Shown in pieces: positions 6,026 through 13,990 of a DNA stretch of 64,000 bases; position 1 is the stretch's first letter, and each line of letters starts with the position of its first letter. The DNA is from Gemmatimonadota bacterium (GTDB taxonomy: Bacteria > Gemmatimonadota > Gemmatimonadetes > Longimicrobiales > Gaopeijiaceae), in NCBI GenBank assembly GCA_029262115.1, contig JAJCZZ010000104.1, positions 1 to 64,000 of the forward strand, written 5' to 3'. The translations under genes and the position numbers were made by a program. Below the pieces are notes generated by a model. It worked only from the letters and a program-made list of their open reading frames with translations. It was not told where the DNA came from and made no database searches.

Positions 6026-8467
6026 ATGGGGATGGAGACGGTACGGGCGGCGTGGAAGAGCTTGAGGCGGGCGAAGGGGTACGCCGCGGCGTTCGTGGCG
6101 ACGCTCGGGCTCGCGATCGGAGTGAATTCTTCGGTCTTTTCGGTGGTGAACGCGGTTCTGCTGAAGCCGCTCCCGTTCGAGAACGCCGACCGGATCGTGT
6201 ACGTGCAGCAACCGGCCGACCGGGCGGAGGTTCAGAACGCGCTGTTCTCCTTCCACGAGGTGGCGGACTACCGAGAGGGCGTCTCGGCCTTCGACGAGGT
6301 CGTGGAGTTCGGAGACTGGAACTTCTCGGTCGTCCCGGCGGATGGTGGGGAGCCTCACCGGGCCGTCGGTGGTCTCGTCACCAACAACTACTTCGATGTG
6401 CTCGGGATCCGTGCCGAGTTGGGCCGGACCACGCTTCCGGAGGATGACGCGGAGGGGGCCGAGCCGGTCATGGTTATGACGCGCCACTACTGGTCGCGCG
6501 CGTTCGGTGAGGACCCGACCGTGCTGGGTTCGCTCGTCGAACTGAACGGAAAGAATACGCGCGTCATCGGCGTGCTCGAGGACGGGAGGCACTACACCGG
6601 CTCCCGACAGCAGGACTTCTACGTCAACTACGCGACGAACGACCACTACCTGGGCGCCAGTATGCAGGACGCGCGCACCCACCGCATGACCGACGTCTTC
6701 GCCCGACTGGCGCCCGGGGCCTCCCTGGAGGCTGCCCGTGCGGAAGCCACGTCCGTGAGCCGCCAGCTCCACCAGGAGTACCCGGACGCATATCCGGAGA
6801 TGATGGGCTTCGGGCTGACCGTGGACCGGTGGCAGGACGAACTGACCGAGAACGCGCGTCCGGTCTTCTTGCTGTTGATGGGTACGGTCGGGGCCATTCT
6901 TCTTCTCGCGTGCGCCAACCTGGCCAACCTCACGCTGACGCGGCTGGTGAGGCGGGAAGGAGAGCTCATGACGCGGGGGGCGCTCGGCGCGCCGTCCTCG
7001 TCGCTTCGCCGCCTTCTGGCCGCGGAGAATCTCCTCCTGTCCGTCGCCGGTGCCGTCCTGGGGATGGCACTGGCGTGGGCCAGCAGCGGGCTGCTCTCGT
7101 CGTACGCGGCCCGGTTCACTGTTCGGGCCCAGGAAGTCGGTGTGGACCTGACGGTCTTTCTGGTCACGTTCCTGATCTCGGCCGGAGTGGCGGTGGGCCT
7201 CGCGTACCTCCCGTGGATGCCCGTCGCGCCCTCGGCCTCGAACATGGCCGGCGCGGCCGGTCGTTCGACCGGCACGCGGGCGCGGAAGCGCACGCAGGCA
7301 GGGCTGGTGGTGGCGCAGCTCGCGCTCTCGTTCACCCTGCTGGCCGGCGCGGGACTGCTCGTCCGCTCGCTCATCGCGCTCCAGGCCGTCGACCCCGGCT
7401 TCGACACGGAGAACGTGGTGACGCTGCAGGCGTTCCAGTCGTTCGCCAACGCGAGCCCTGCCGTGTCCAACCGGGATCTCTTTGAGCAGGTGGAGGAGCG
7501 GATCCGTGGATTTCCAGGCGTCCGGGCGGTCGGAGTCTCGTCGTACGCGCCCATGACCGGAGCCATGCGCATGGCGTGGAACTTCCAGGTGGAAGGGGGC
7601 GAGGAAGGTAGTCAACGCACGATCACGGCTGCCATGAACAGCGTGTCGAACGGCTACTTCGATGCGCTCGGCGTCGATCTGGTGGCCGGCCGCCTGTTCA
7701 CCCTGACGGATCTTCCTGAGTCCGAACCGGTCGTGATCCTCAGCCGGGGGCTCGCGCGCTCCTACTTCGGAGATGCCGATCCTATTGGCCAGCGGCTCGC
7801 CCGCTCCTTCGACGGCGCCAACTGGGGCCCGTTCGCCCGCATTGTCGGGGTGGTCGAGGATTCCAAGCAGTTCGGGCTGGGCGAGGACGCCACGCCCACT
7901 CTCTACATGCCGGCGCAGCAGACCAACTACGGCCAGACGATCATCGTGGCGAGTCGGGCGGACCCCCTGCCGCTGGTGCAGTCGATCAAGGACGCCATCC
8001 GGGAGGTGGACCCCACCCGGCCGGTCGATCAGATCCGCACGGTCGACGATCTTGTGGCCGAGGACGTGGCTCCGGCTCGCCTCAACGCGACGCTCTTCAC
8101 CGTGTTCGCCTTGCTGGCGCTCGTCATCGCGGCGGTCGGAGTCCTCGGCGTGCTCGCGTTCTCGGTCGGCCAGCGGACCCGCGAGTTCGGCCTGCGCATG
8201 GCCATCGGGGCCGACCGGGACATGGTGCTCCTGTCCGTCCTCGGGGAGGGTACGAAGCTGGTGGCGCTCGCTCTCGTCCTGGGAGCGGTTGGGGCCGTGG
8301 CCCTGTCCCGCTTCCTGTCCGGGATGCTCTACGGGGTCGAGCCGGTGGACCCGGTGGCGTTCGGCTTGGCGGGCGTGATTCTGTCCTCGGTAGCCCTTCT
8401 GTCCGCATTCTTCCCTGCCTTGAGGGCGACACGCGTCGACCCGATGCAGGCCCTTCGTAGCGAGTAG
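6026..8467 (+). CDS. Large MacB/FtsX-type permease (ADOP family), copy 1
   Basis: An 813-residue permease without an ATPase domain. A first helix near residues 20-40 is followed by a MacB-type periplasmic core domain, then two FtsX domains each with about three helices. The conserved FGLRMAIGAD motif near the C terminus and the final DPMQALRSE are typical. This double-length form is known as acidobacterial duplicated orphan permease and is common in Acidobacteria and Gemmatimonadota. Two starts are possible six bases apart (6026 and 6032). It leads an operon with a PadR regulator (6-base gap) and a second such permease. The substrate and ATPase partner are unknown. Confidence 0.9.
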   Translation: MGMETVRAAWKSLRRAKGYAAAFVATLGLAIGVNSSVFSVVNAVLLKPLPFENADRIVYVQQPADRAEVQNALFSFHEVADYREGVSAFDEVVEFGDWNFSVVPADGGEPHRAVGGLVTNNYFDVLGIRAELGRTTLPEDDAEGAEPVMVMTRHYWSRAFGEDPTVLGSLVELNGKNTRVIGVLEDGRHYTGSRQQDFYVNYATNDHYLGASMQDARTHRMTDVFARLAPGASLEAARAEATSVSRQLHQEYPDAYPEMMGFGLTVDRWQDELTENARPVFLLLMGTVGAILLLACANLANLTLTRLVRREGELMTRGALGAPSSSLRRLLAAENLLLSVAGAVLGMALAWASSGLLSSYAARFTVRAQEVGVDLTVFLVTFLISAGVAVGLAYLPWMPVAPSASNMAGAAGRSTGTRARKRTQAGLVVAQLALSFTLLAGAGLLVRSLIALQAVDPGFDTENVVTLQAFQSFANASPAVSNRDLFEQVEERIRGFPGVRAVGVSSYAPMTGAMRMAWNFQVEGGEEGSQRTITAAMNSVSNGYFDALGVDLVAGRLFTLTDLPESEPVVILSRGLARSYFGDADPIGQRLARSFDGANWGPFARIVGVVEDSKQFGLGEDATPTLYMPAQQTNYGQTIIVASRADPLPLVQSIKDAIREVDPTRPVDQIRTVDDLVAEDVAPARLNATLFTVFALLALVIAAVGVLGVLAFSVGQRTREFGLRMAIGADRDMVLLSVLGEGTKLVALALVLGAVGAVALSRFLSGMLYGVEPVDPVAFGLAGVILSSVALLSAFFPALRATRVDPMQALRSE

Positions 8468-8815: not shown

Positions 8816-11518
8816 GTGCCGATCTGGCTCTACCGGATTTTGCTTCGGGCCTACCCGAGGGGCTTCCGCGCGCGCTACGAGCGCGACCTGCTCGAAGGCT
8901 TCGAGTACCTGGCGGACGAGGCTCGTCGACGAGGGCTGCCGAGGTGGCTCGCTTTCGGCGTGCGCACCGCATGGGATACGCTGCGCTCCGGAGTCCGGGA
9001 GCGGGCGTCGACGCGAGGATACCGCCTCGGAACGAGCGGTGTCCGCTTCCCTGGTTCGGGACTCAGCACACTGCTGGCCGACGCGTTGATCGACGTCCGG
9101 TACGCGGCGCGCACCCTGCGGGCAACGCCGGGATATCTCGTCGGGGTGGCCGTCACGCTGGCGCTGGGGGTCGGCGCCAACACGGCGCTGTTCAGCGCCG
9201 CGTGGGGCGTGTTCGGCCGCCCGCTTCCGTTTGATGATGCGAACGAGTTGGTCCGGGTCGAGGCCTTCCGCCCGTCCTGGGAGGAGGGCATGTCCGGGGG
9301 ACGGGACCTGACGTTCTCGGTGGCGGAGTTGGGAGATCTGCGCAGCGTCGGCGCGTTCGAAGACGTTGCCGAATACCACCGGATGAGCTTCACGCTGATC
9401 GGACCGGCCGGTCCCGACCTCGTCCAGGCCGCGGTCGTATCATCGAACTACTTCGACTTCCTGGGAATGCGGCCGATGCTCGGGCGGCTGTTCGCGCCGG
9501 TGGAAGATCATCTGGGCGCCCGCCCGGTCATCGTGCTCAGCTACGAGTATTGGACCTCCTCGTTCGCGTCCGATCCGGACGTCGTGGGACGGACCGTTCG
9601 AATGAACGGAAGCGAGCACGAGATCGTCGGCGTTTTGCCACGTATTCCGCAGTTCCCGGAGCAGAACCACATCTATCTGCCGATCTCCGTCTGCCCGACG
9701 CGGTCGAGTCCCACCTTCATTGAGAACCGTGACCGCCGGATGATGTCGGCCTATGCTCGGCTCGATGACCGCGCCGGGCTCGAGGGCGCACGCGAGGAGC
9801 TGGATCACGCGCGTTCCAGGATGCATGGAGAACACGCGGGATACGCGGATATCCCCGGCGGGCACGATCTCTCGCTCACGCCGCTTCGCGAGGAACTGGT
9901 CCGGGAAGCACGGCCGGTGCTGACCCCACTGATCGGCGTGGCGCTCCTGCTGCTCCTGATCGCGTGCGCCAACGCCGCGGGTCTCGCGCTCTCTCGGGCG
10001 AACCGGCGCATGGGCTCCCTCGTTGTTCGCTCGGCCATGGGTGCGGGCCGCGGACGGATCGCACGGCAGCTTCTGACCGAATCCGTTCTGGTGGCCGTGC
10101 TCGGCTGGGCGTTGGGTCTCGCCGTCGCGGTGGTGGGAAGCGACCTCCTAGCGACCTTTGCGGCAGGGTTTACGACCCGCGCTCAGGAGATTCGCGTGGA
10201 TGGTGTGGTCCTGGCGTTTTCTTTGGGCGCCGCAGTGGTCACCGGACTGGCGTTCGGCCTGGCGCCGGTGCTCACCACGTCCCGCCTGTCGGAGCGGCTC
10301 CTGCGGTCGGGAGGGGCGACCGCCGGCCTGCGTAGCGGCAGGCTCCAGCGAGGTCTCGTGGCCGTGCAGGTGATGTTCGCGTTCGCGGTCCTGTCCAGTG
10401 CGGGTCTGCTCTTACGGAGCTTCTGGAACGCCAACTCGACGGCCGTCGGCTTCGAAACGGAGTCTGTCATCACCGCGGAATTCACCGGGAGTCAGGATCG
10501 CTATTCGGGCAACGTCGCCTTCCGCAAGATGCTCGACGCGGCCCGCGAGCGCCTCCGTGCGGATGCCCGCTTCACTGCGGTGGCCCGGACGCAGTGGGCG
10601 CCGCTGGCCGATCCCCACGCCCACCGCGACGGCTATTACCTCGGCACCGGGACGTCCGAATGGGTCGCCGCCGTGGCTGACGGCCGTGCCGTCGACCCGG
10701 AATACTTCGACGTGCTCGGTATCGATGTGGTGCGGGGCAGGGGGTTGAACGCGGCCGATACGCTCGGAGCCGAGCAGGTCGTCGTCGTGAACGAGACCTT
10801 CTATTCGACCTATATGGAGGGGACTGCGGACGTCGGCGACTTGGCCGCGCCGTGCCCGCCCGAGGATCGGTGCGGAGAGCCGCTCCGCATTGTCGGGGTG
10901 GTCCGAGACGCCCGGGTCAACGGAGCCGAATTCGACGTCGTACCGAGGCTTTTCGCCCCGTTGGATCAGACGGACTGGTTCTCGAACGTCCTCGTCGCGA
11001 GAGTCGTGGGCGATCCCCAGATCGCGATCACCGAGATGGTTGCGGTCGTCCACGCGATCGATCCCGAGTTGGCGGTGCGCCACTCTGGGAGCCTCGAGCA
11101 CTTCCGGAGGGAGGCGCTCACACCGCGCCGCTTCATGGCCAGCCTCCTGATCATGTTCGCGGCCGTGGCGACGGGCCTGGCGCTGGCGGGCGTCTTCGGC
11201 GTGACGGCGCTGGCCGCATCCGCCCGCACACGTGAACTGGCCATTCGCCGGTCGCTGGGTGCCACCGAACAGGAAGCCGAGCGATTGGTGGTTCGCGACG
11301 GGCTCGTCGTCGTGGCCGTCGGCTGGGTCGGCGGCTTGGTGTTGACCTGGTGGATCGGGCCGGCTCTGGAGGGGGTACTCTTCGACGTCGAACCGTGGGA
11401 TCCGCTCACGCTCGCGGGTGTGGGCGCCCTCTTCCTGGCGGCGGCCGCGGTCGCATGTCTCGTCCCGGCTCGGCGCGCCACCCGCGTAGAGGTCGTCACC
11501 ACACTCAACCACTCATGA
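8816..11518 (+). CDS. Large MacB/FtsX-type permease (ADOP family), copy 2 with N-terminal prefix domain
   Basis: A 900-residue permease starting at a GTG. Unlike copy 1 it has a soluble N-terminal extension of about 90 residues (LYRILLRAYPRGFRARY...) that is a known prefix domain of this family, then the same MacB core plus duplicated FtsX domains. LAIRRSLGATEQEAERL is the FtsX loop near the C terminus. It is third in the permease-PadR-permease operon. It aligns by eye with copy 1 over the core, for example LTRLVRREGELMTRGALGAP versus LSRANRRMGSLVVRSAMGAG, but the sequences have diverged widely. Confidence 0.9.
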   Translation: MPIWLYRILLRAYPRGFRARYERDLLEGFEYLADEARRRGLPRWLAFGVRTAWDTLRSGVRERASTRGYRLGTSGVRFPGSGLSTLLADALIDVRYAARTLRATPGYLVGVAVTLALGVGANTALFSAAWGVFGRPLPFDDANELVRVEAFRPSWEEGMSGGRDLTFSVAELGDLRSVGAFEDVAEYHRMSFTLIGPAGPDLVQAAVVSSNYFDFLGMRPMLGRLFAPVEDHLGARPVIVLSYEYWTSSFASDPDVVGRTVRMNGSEHEIVGVLPRIPQFPEQNHIYLPISVCPTRSSPTFIENRDRRMMSAYARLDDRAGLEGAREELDHARSRMHGEHAGYADIPGGHDLSLTPLREELVREARPVLTPLIGVALLLLLIACANAAGLALSRANRRMGSLVVRSAMGAGRGRIARQLLTESVLVAVLGWALGLAVAVVGSDLLATFAAGFTTRAQEIRVDGVVLAFSLGAAVVTGLAFGLAPVLTTSRLSERLLRSGGATAGLRSGRLQRGLVAVQVMFAFAVLSSAGLLLRSFWNANSTAVGFETESVITAEFTGSQDRYSGNVAFRKMLDAARERLRADARFTAVARTQWAPLADPHAHRDGYYLGTGTSEWVAAVADGRAVDPEYFDVLGIDVVRGRGLNAADTLGAEQVVVVNETFYSTYMEGTADVGDLAAPCPPEDRCGEPLRIVGVVRDARVNGAEFDVVPRLFAPLDQTDWFSNVLVARVVGDPQIAITEMVAVVHAIDPELAVRHSGSLEHFRREALTPRRFMASLLIMFAAVATGLALAGVFGVTALAASARTRELAIRRSLGATEQEAERLVVRDGLVVVAVGWVGGLVLTWWIGPALEGVLFDVEPWDPLTLAGVGALFLAAAAVACLVPARRATRVEVVTTLNHS

Positions 11519-11770: not shown

Positions 11771-12850
11771 ATGCGCTACTCCGCCCGCCCGACTCCGATC
11801 GCCGCCGCCTTGATGTGCCGCACGGACGCGGCACGATCTGCGCTTCGACGCAGCCCGATCGCTGTCTTCACTCGGATGCTCCGCGTAGATGCGAGGCCCC
11901 GTGTCACCCGCCTCGGCTCGCTAGCCGTGGCCGCCTCGCTGTTCCCAACACTGTTCGTTGCGGGGCCCGTCGCGGCTCAGGCGGGACCCACCGCCTCGGA
12001 CAGTCGCGCCGAACTGCTGGTGGACGCCGATTGGCTGATGGCCAACCGTGAGATGGACGACCTCGTGATCGTTCACGTCGCCGGGGACGAGGAGGGTGCG
12101 GCGACCGCGCGGACGATCCCCGGCGCGTCGGTCATCCACCTCGGGCAAATCTCGGTCAGTCGCATGGAAGAAGGGGCCCCACGAGTGCGCCTCGACCTTC
12201 CCGACGACCTGAAGCCCGTCGTGTCCGCTTTCGAGAGGGCGGGTATCTCCGACGGGTCGCGCGTCGTGCTGGTGTCTGACGGCGGCCAACTACCACGGGC
12301 GTCACGGGCGTTGTGGACGCTCCAGTTCCTCGGCCTCGACGAGGACGTGTCGATCCTGGACGGAGGCGTCGATGCGTGGGTGGCCGCGGGGGGCGCGGTC
12401 ACGACCGAGCGGGCGGCTCCCGCACGGGGCGCCATCACAGCCGCGCTCCGCGCGGACCGCCGGGTCGACGCAGGTTGGGTCCTGACGAACGGACGCACCG
12501 ACGGCGTCGCGCTGATCGACGCACGACGGACGGTTTCCTACGACGGGACGCGTCCTGAGCTTCCCGGCCGTATCGGCCACATCCCCGGGGCAGGGAGTCT
12601 GCCGCAGGTCGAGCTCTACACCGAGGGCGGCCGCCTGAAGAGCGACGCCGACCTGCGCGCCCTGTTCGAACGCGCCGGCGTGACGGAGGGCGACCAGGTG
12701 GTGGCGTACTGTCACATCGGCCTGTGGGCCTCGGCGGTCGTGTTCGCGGCGCGTACCCTGGGCATCGACGCGCGCCTCTACGACGGCTCCATGACCGAGT
12801 GGGCGGCGGACCCGGAACTCCCCCTGGTGGTGCCCGGCGGCGGGCGGTAG
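11771..12850 (+). CDS. Exported two-domain rhodanese (thiosulfate sulfurtransferase)
   Basis: A 359-residue protein with tandem rhodanese domains. The first (about residues 75-200) is degenerate and lacks a loop cysteine. The second carries C314 in VAYCHIGLWASAV, the position of the persulfide-forming cysteine; the loop differs from the canonical CRxGxT. A signal peptide ending near PVAAQA follows a long basic N-terminal arm. AAGGA just upstream supports the ATG at 11771, although M36 (11876) would give a more normal signal peptide. Likely exported and acting on thiosulfate or another sulfane-sulfur donor. It is followed 58 bases later by the small membrane protein gene. Confidence 0.85.
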   Translation: MRYSARPTPIAAALMCRTDAARSALRRSPIAVFTRMLRVDARPRVTRLGSLAVAASLFPTLFVAGPVAAQAGPTASDSRAELLVDADWLMANREMDDLVIVHVAGDEEGAATARTIPGASVIHLGQISVSRMEEGAPRVRLDLPDDLKPVVSAFERAGISDGSRVVLVSDGGQLPRASRALWTLQFLGLDEDVSILDGGVDAWVAAGGAVTTERAAPARGAITAALRADRRVDAGWVLTNGRTDGVALIDARRTVSYDGTRPELPGRIGHIPGAGSLPQVELYTEGGRLKSDADLRALFERAGVTEGDQVVAYCHIGLWASAVVFAARTLGIDARLYDGSMTEWAADPELPLVVPGGGR

Positions 12851-12908: not shown

Positions 12909-13226
12909 GTGAAACCGCTCCTGCCACCTCGTCCGTTCGCCGACCGTCTGGTCGCGCGCGCTTTCGTGATCTGGATCGTCCTCAAGGGCTTTGGCGCCGG
13001 CGGGGTCATCCTGGTGGGCGGCTCCCCCGTGGCGGCCTTCGTCGCCTTCCCCGTTGCGACCCTGCCGCTGGTGTTCGTGGTGCTCGTGGCGGTTCGGATC
13101 GACATGGCCCGTCAGAGCGAGGCCGTCTTTCTCGCGAATCTGGGGTGGCCGTTTCGACGCATCGCCGTATCGCTCACGGTCCTCATCGTCGTGCTCGACG
13201 GCGCGGTTGCTCTGCTCGCTTCATGA
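12909..13226 (+). CDS. 105-residue membrane protein coupled to an ABC ATPase
   Basis: Not assigned to a family. It starts at a GTG and has three predicted membrane segments (about 22-38, 42-64 and 85-103). Between the second and third lies the charged loop RQSEAVFLANLGWPFRR, which resembles a permease coupling helix with an acidic residue and a small-residue LG turn. Its stop overlaps the ATPase start as ATGA, which implies translational coupling. It is best read as a very small membrane partner of that ATPase; this is inference. Confidence 0.75.
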   Translation: MKPLLPPRPFADRLVARAFVIWIVLKGFGAGGVILVGGSPVAAFVAFPVATLPLVFVVLVAVRIDMARQSEAVFLANLGWPFRRIAVSLTVLIVVLDGAVALLAS

Positions 13227-13990
13227 TCCATGAATCGGGTCCTCACGGCTGCACCGTCCCGGCACCCGCCGAATATGTCCTCCGAGCGGAGGGGATCGGG
13301 AAGTCATTCGGAGGGGTGGAGGTCCTGTCGTCCGCCTCCCTGTGGGCCGAGCCCGGCCGGGTCACCACCCTCCTGGGCCGGAACGGCTGTGGCAAGACGA
13401 CCCTGATGAGAATTGCGGCTGGACGACTCGGTCCGGACTGGGGGGTCGTGAAGTACCGGGGCCGGGTCCGGGTGGCGGGCGGCCTGGCCGCCATGGCCCG
13501 GGACGGCTTGATGTTCGTCCCGCAGGGCAGCCTGCTGTGCCCGAGCTACCGCGTCGAGGACCACTTTCGCGCGCTCCGACACGCGTTCCCCGTGTCCAAC
13601 TGCGCGTTCTCAGCGCCCGACCTCGACGCCGCAGTCGAGCGCTTTCGGTTGGGTCCGCTCCTGGAGCAGCGGACGTGGACGCTCTCGGGCGGCGAGAAAA
13701 TGCGCGTGTCCGTCGCGCTGGCCGTAGCGCGCCGTCCACTGGTCCTTCTCATCGACGAGCCGTTCGTGGGCGTCCAGCCCAAGGATCAGGAGATGGTGGC
13801 GGACGCGTTGCGAGCGCTGGCGGACGAGGGGTGCGCGGTGGTCACCTCCGGCCACGACGTGCGCGTCCTCATGGAGGTGTCGGATGCCATCATCTGGTGC
13901 ACGGCTGGAACCACCCACCACCTGGGAACCCCGGCCGATGCCGCGTCTTCCGACCAGTTCAGACGGGAGTACCTGGGCGCCTTTGCGTAG
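13223..13990 (+). CDS. ABC transporter ATP-binding protein
   Basis: A 255-residue stand-alone ABC ATPase. Walker A is GRNGCGKTT, the signature LSGGEKMR, Walker B LVLLIDEPFVGV, and the switch region SGHD. The general type is like LptB/LivF. The ATG at 13223 overlaps the stop of the 105-residue membrane protein (ATGA). No ordinary-sized permease is adjacent: downstream is a convergent gene and upstream a rhodanese. The small membrane protein is therefore the only visible membrane partner. The cargo is unknown. Confidence 0.9.
   Translation: MIHESGPHGCTVPAPAEYVLRAEGIGKSFGGVEVLSSASLWAEPGRVTTLLGRNGCGKTTLMRIAAGRLGPDWGVVKYRGRVRVAGGLAAMARDGLMFVPQGSLLCPSYRVEDHFRALRHAFPVSNCAFSAPDLDAAVERFRLGPLLEQRTWTLSGGEKMRVSVALAVARRPLVLLIDEPFVGVQPKDQEMVADALRALADEGCAVVTSGHDVRVLMEVSDAIIWCTAGTTHHLGTPADAASSDQFRREYLGAFA

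Follow-up and report, generated by a model that had tools for sequence, protein, structure and literature searches.

The locus and its genes

The window analysed here, a 64,000-nucleotide stretch of DNA from a Gemmatimonadota bacterium, carries two overlapping genes, the first encoding a small membrane protein and the second an ABC ATPase (Table 1). A sequence-only reading of this DNA had proposed the two as a minimal ABC system, and both open reading frames, together with the ATG and TGA that share bases between them, have been confirmed. Among the 59 pairs in which both gene ends are readable, a 4-nt overlap is found in 30 and a spacing of 30 nt or less in 56.

Table 1. Features of the gene pair and of its upstream neighbours, with positions in the window.
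Feature	Position	Strand	Basis or remark
Orphan FtsX/MacB-type (ADOP) permease gene	about 6038-8464		upstream of pair
Orphan FtsX/MacB-type (ADOP) permease gene	about 8816-11518		upstream of pair
Small membrane protein, 105 aa, three TM helices	12909..13226	+	GTG-started ORF; no Pfam/NCBIfam family
TM1 (residues 10-35), TM2 (48-68) and TM3 (82-104) of the small protein			AlphaFold model
Lys26, TM1	12984..12986	+	basic (R/H/K) in 66/66 aligned sequences
Predicted coupling helix EAVFLAN, residues 71-77, between TM2 and TM3	13119..13139	+	AlphaFold and conservation
Asp97, TM3	13197..13199	+	acidic (E/D) in 65/66 aligned sequences
ATGA start/stop overlap of both genes	13223..13226	+	ATG and TGA share bases
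ABC ATPase, 255 aa, LptB-sister clade	13223..13990	+	ORF, family search, tree
Walker A, GRNGCGKTT	13376..13402	+	Lys in 59/59 relatives
ABC signature, LSGGE	13682..13696	+	Ser in 58/59 relatives
End of Walker B with catalytic Glu, LLIDE	13745..13759	+	Asp and Glu in 59/59
Family-specific C-terminal tail, ..W.TAGTTH.LGTP..A....FRREYLG	13811..13978	+	probe across all species
H-loop His	13853..13855	+	59/59 relatives

Conservation of the pair

With the small protein as a single query, relatives were found in 7 of 96 genomes of the family and in 10 of 298 genomes of the phylum, two overlapping samples that both include the window's own genome, and the ATPase gene adjoined the small gene in all 12 other loci from these searches. 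A 13-row profile (A1) then recognized small-protein relatives in 73 of 394 genomes of the class, the other 321 giving no match. Conservation in these 73 genomes, and in another genus at E 4e-18, rules out chance. Of the 74 flanking loci that were fetched, 72 again yielded the small gene; the two weakest profile matches (L124 and L125) gave no small protein on re-extraction. A family ATPase lies directly downstream in 63 of the 72 loci; in five the ATPase comes first, one is a small-first fusion, and in three no ATPase is in reach on the DNA that was fetched.

The pairing also holds from the side of the ATPase. A profile (E 1e-55) matched one ATPase gene each in 41 of 249 phylum genomes, and in 40 of these 41, which are not a blind sample because the profile was derived from pairs, the small gene is at most 250 nt away on the same strand or is fused; the 41st ATPase gene (G013) is cut at a contig end. 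ATPase homologs standing beside a full permease, with the small protein unconserved, had been named as the pattern contrary to the proposal, and it is not what these genomes hold. Small membrane protein and ATPase form a conserved unit across the Gemmatimonadota.

Closer to a blind sample is a scan of 84,980 species with the C-terminal tail of the ATPase alone. It returned 46 loci, all named as Gemmatimonadota (the placement of Palauibacter in the phylum was checked, and the Longimicrobiales belong to it as well); because the probe is biased towards TTH tails, the lack of matches in other phyla does no more than suggest that the family is absent there. The small gene is adjacent in 36 of the 46 loci and fused in three, four loci are cut by contig ends, and three have no small gene alongside. 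In one of the last three (L299), a stop interrupts the fusion, the small part lying just downstream; another (L276) is an intact ATPase alone, in a genome with an unlinked small gene that is identical to the small gene of locus L079. In the third (L263), the first half of the ATPase has been lost and the genome is without a small gene; the family tail is joined here to an unrelated N-terminal stretch with no Walker A, a joint loss with the small gene. The pair is a real, conserved two-part ABC system, present in these searches only in Gemmatimonadota. A literature search, with most subscription journals outside its scope, gave no description of such a pair in this phylum.

The ATPase as a sister of LptB

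The motif set of an ABC ATPase, comprising Walker A, the Walker B glutamate, the signature and the H-loop, is intact in the pair family, as counted in 59 rows from which L053, L107, L114 and L115 had been left out for unknown residues or short length. The position of the Q-loop (LptB position 85) is occupied by D in 32 of the 59, by Q in 10 and by E in 10, a shift from Gln to Asp/Glu at the interface of the ATPase and the membrane part.

The window ATPase is an ABC_tran protein in Pfam, and its best NCBIfam model is that of LptB (TIGR04406), at a score of 111.5 bits that is below the curated cut-off of 240 and leaves it outside that family; the canonical LptB proteins of relatives reach 339-359 bits. 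In a tree of 96 ABC ATPases, for which 20 pair-family rows were taken from the 60 at hand, the pair family forms one clade (100/100). It is sister to LptB, including that of E. coli (100/97), a placement that could be affected by the family's long stem branch (1.97). LptB itself is a separate clade (98/86), and LivF, LivG, FtsE and 44 other ATPases fall outside both. The sister placement had also come out of an earlier tree of 83 rows (99/88); five sequences with long branches (own_L246-L249 and rel_L210) were included in that tree and left out of the second.

In E. coli, F90 and R150 of LptB are described as part of the LptFG-binding groove (PMC5082905). Most pair-family ATPases have S, T, C or P at position 90 (F in 2 of 60) and L, A or V at position 150 in place of the arginine, replacements fitting a new partner. 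Canonical LptB and LptFG are also present in the window's genome, and the pair is therefore additional to them.

The small membrane protein

The small protein of the window has no match in Pfam or NCBIfam. Sixty-six members searched against the same collections gave scattered weak matches only, the best at E 0.0018 in one member and one a weak match to LolC (E 0.019). Neither LptF/LptG (PF03739, at E 0.1) nor FtsX (PF02687) was among the Pfam matches of these proteins, and a sequence search of the PDB with the small-protein profile gave 0 matches. The alignment used for conservation and modelling (A3) comprised the window protein and 65 others, L099, L121 and L123 having been left out of 68 extracted references.

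An AlphaFold model from these 66 sequences (pLDDT 92.7) places helices at residues 10-35, 40-44, 48-68, 71-77 and 82-104, in the order TM1-TM2-coupling helix-TM3. TM1 and TM2 are joined by a loop of about a dozen residues, and a single residue follows TM3 as the C-terminal tail. The same helices are predicted, with pLDDT mostly about 90, for a naturally fused small domain that is only 23% identical to the window protein. The suggestion in the sequence-only reading that the RQSEAVFLANLGWPFRR loop could be a coupling helix agrees with the short helix predicted at 71-77. W22, E71, N77 and G79 are each kept in 59-62 of the 66 aligned proteins; in the region of the coupling helix, E71 is found in 60, N77 in 59 and the adjoining G79 in 61. 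The average number of basic residues is 3.0 in the N-terminal stretch that ends at residue 17, compared with 0.6 near loop 1-2 and 3.8 near loop 2-3. The orientation of membrane proteins tends to follow the positive-inside rule, by which the enrichment around loop 2-3 points to a cytoplasmic coupling helix. Finally, residues 26 and 97, both charged (Table 1), lie inside predicted TM helices at a similar distance from the outer end, and residue 97 is a possible partner of residue 26, with which it may be in contact.

Resemblance to the N-terminal half of LptF and LptG

When the model of the small protein was compared with 21 chains of solved structures (VIA re-alignment), the top five matches were all residues 1-121 of LptG or LptF, with Z of 8.4-5.4, rmsd of 2.5-2.8 and 95-96 of the 105 residues aligned; the best chain, 8ufg_G, had Z 8.4, rmsd 2.5 and 96 residues aligned. 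The next row, an unrelated one, had Z 4.3 and rmsd 7.8, the rmsd of unrelated rows being at least 5.7. Helical bundles can reach a middling Z by chance. The 21 chains contained no MlaE or MacB/FtsX chain, and the comparison says nothing against either. Foldseek alone, with the same model, gave nothing significant (E above 5). In its predicted model, the small protein has the fold of the N-terminal half of LptF/LptG, namely TM1-TM2-coupling helix-TM3; with its three TM helices in 105 residues, it is without the six TM helices and the beta-jellyroll between TM3 and TM4 that are traits of LptF/LptG.

Sequence homology of the small protein to LptF/LptG was considered and is not significant. A profile-profile comparison (hhalign) with 27 N-terminal halves of LptF/G from relatives (L168 and L190 being left out as out of frame) gave a probability of 0.6%, no better than the 0.5-1.5% of reversed controls, and common descent with the membrane part of LptF/G is therefore not demonstrated. 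LptF and LptG are themselves reported to share only 17% identity with each other (PMC5548808). The glutamate of the coupling helix aligns with that of LptF/LptG, in a register taken from a non-significant alignment; E84/E88 in the coupling helices of LptF/LptG are described as crucial in E. coli (PMC5082905). A model of a fusion had a poor ATPase half, only four rows of its alignment bearing an ATPase, and its structure matches were ABC ATPases, which are uninformative on docking.

Fusions and unlinked genes

Fusions of the small protein and the ATPase occur in both orders and in two families, which argues for a direct partnership, and they join only these two proteins, with no third part. The ATPase-first order is found at five loci in one genus, which includes Candidatus Palauibacter (L305). 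Open frames of 379-381 aa are seen at L095, L101 and L116, and a frameshift in the ATPase part at L102. At L122 (genome G144), a fusion that is open in the sister species is split by an in-frame TAG at about 6127-6129, in the region of the small domain. The small-first fusion, of 382 aa, is encoded in a one-contig genome (G040).

Hints of copy number come from three other genomes. In G204, two different small genes, 45% identical, stand in tandem before one ATPase, and G059 and G089 each have one paired and one unpaired small gene, a single family ATPase being found in G059. These arrangements suggest two small subunits per complex, which would resemble the arrangement of LptF and LptG. The LptB/LptFG link, the fusions and the buried charge pair were all absent from the sequence-only reading.

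Neighbourhood and alternative explanations

The claim that no normal permease is nearby did not survive, as the pair is preceded by two genes for orphan permeases of the FtsX/MacB type (ADOP). ADOP permeases are, by name, orphan permeases. The window's genome holds at least 67 ADOP genes above the curated cut-off in 5.45 Mb, a density at which chance suffices for two upstream permeases, and genes of this type are near only 7 of the 73 clustered pair loci; on both counts, the idea that the ATPase serves the neighbouring ADOP permeases was rejected. Neighbour clustering of the 73 loci found no other gene conserved beside the pair and none naming a substrate. A double rhodanese (sulfurtransferase) gene at 11771-12850, 58 nt upstream of the pair, is likewise not conserved beside it elsewhere. 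At L058, L070 and L079, two of which have the ATPase, the small gene comes after a VgrG-like gene and another gene common to the three loci; L079 carries a PAAR-like gene as well. This setting recalls type VI secretion loci, the VgrG and PAAR labels being presumptive ones given from the sequences. A link to type VI secretion was rejected, since all three loci belong to genus g5 and shared descent is enough.

One unlikely alternative has the pair energising a membrane protein whose gene lies elsewhere, such as the canonical LptFG or an orphan ADOP/FtsX permease, the small protein then serving as an adaptor rather than a transport domain. Such a role would suit the two permeases just upstream and a subunit whose three TM helices fall short of the four-helix core described as common to FtsX, LptF/G, ABCG and ABCA domains (PMC6588880). 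It is opposed, however, by the sufficiency of chance for the ADOP neighbours, by the loss of the groove with which LptB binds LptFG, and by the lack of a conserved third gene or of a third part in the fusions. A comparably low probability is given to an FtsEX-like force transmitter, whose ATP-driven movement would be exerted on a membrane or periplasmic partner while no substrate is moved. The small size, the one ATPase gene per genome and the lack of a substrate-handling neighbour are all in keeping with this role, for which FtsEX is a known precedent (PMC11491553), but the short TM1-TM2 loop and one-residue tail provide no periplasmic domain with which a partner could be pulled. Less probable still is a small protein that merely anchors or regulates a cytosolic ABC ATPase with no coupling, since the genomes of the three small genes with no ATPase in reach, which would favour it, hold a family ATPase elsewhere, and conservation of the coupling-type helix, with its Glu and NLG motif, and of the buried charges exceeds an anchor's need.

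A proposed minimal ABC complex

The preferred reading, to which we assign a probability of roughly 70%, is that the small protein and the LptB-related ATPase form one obligate ABC complex of minimal type-VI-like architecture. What the computation shows is that the two genes pair and fuse, how the small protein is predicted to fold, where the ATPase falls in the tree and that its catalytic residues are conserved. From these we infer a 2:2 stoichiometry, docking, coupling, activity and a class of substrate, as follows. The small subunit would be shaped like the first half of LptF/LptG, minus the beta-jellyroll and TM4-6, and the membrane part would probably consist of 3+3 TM helices. Two ATPases would dimerise on ATP, with one small subunit docked on each through its E-x2-FLxNLG helix, and closure of the ATPases would swing both three-helix bundles. 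The buried basic/acidic pair of TM1 and TM3 may hold or gate the bundle. Lacking a soluble domain in the periplasm, the complex would do its work within the membrane, most plausibly on a lipid or another amphiphile of the inner membrane's outer leaflet.

It is plausible that the pair is a complete working transporter with three TM helices per half (3+3). It would be an extractor of lipids or amphiphiles that belongs to the Lpt branch, is reduced below the four-helix core regarded as common to such transmembrane domains, and occurs once as a fused half-transporter of 382 aa; the odds of this stand a little short of even. Action on a membrane lipid or amphiphile, taken by itself, is put forward more tentatively.

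Comparison with known systems and significance

The pair most closely recalls LptB2FG, the type VI ABC extractor of lipopolysaccharide, in that its ATPase belongs to the sister clade of LptB and its predicted membrane protein superposes on TM1, TM2, the coupling helix and TM3 of LptF/LptG, with a Glu in the coupling helix. Unlike LptB2FG, it has three TM helices rather than six, no beta-jellyroll, replaced groove residues and a membrane part with no significant sequence homology to LptF/LptG. With the type VII systems MacB and FtsEX, it shares a small number of TM helices and a coupling helix between core TM2 and TM3 (as described in PMC6588880); its ATPase, however, groups away from FtsE in the tree, and the small protein lacks the periplasmic domain of MacB. 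MlaFE, an ABC system for phospholipids, likewise combines an ATPase with a compact membrane subunit. The TM helices given in PMC8386196 are 6+6 for LptFG, 4+4 for MacB and five for MlaE, the last having two more per subunit than the pair. Against these, the membrane part of the pair looks to be smaller than any found described.

If this holds true, a natural three-helix version that is conserved, can be fused and retains an intact motor of the LptB type would define a new lower bound, and would offer a very simple system for learning how a coupling helix turns the ATP-driven closure of an ATPase into work in the membrane. As a relative of the Lpt motor outside lipopolysaccharide export, the pair would also be useful for tracing the origin of LptFG.
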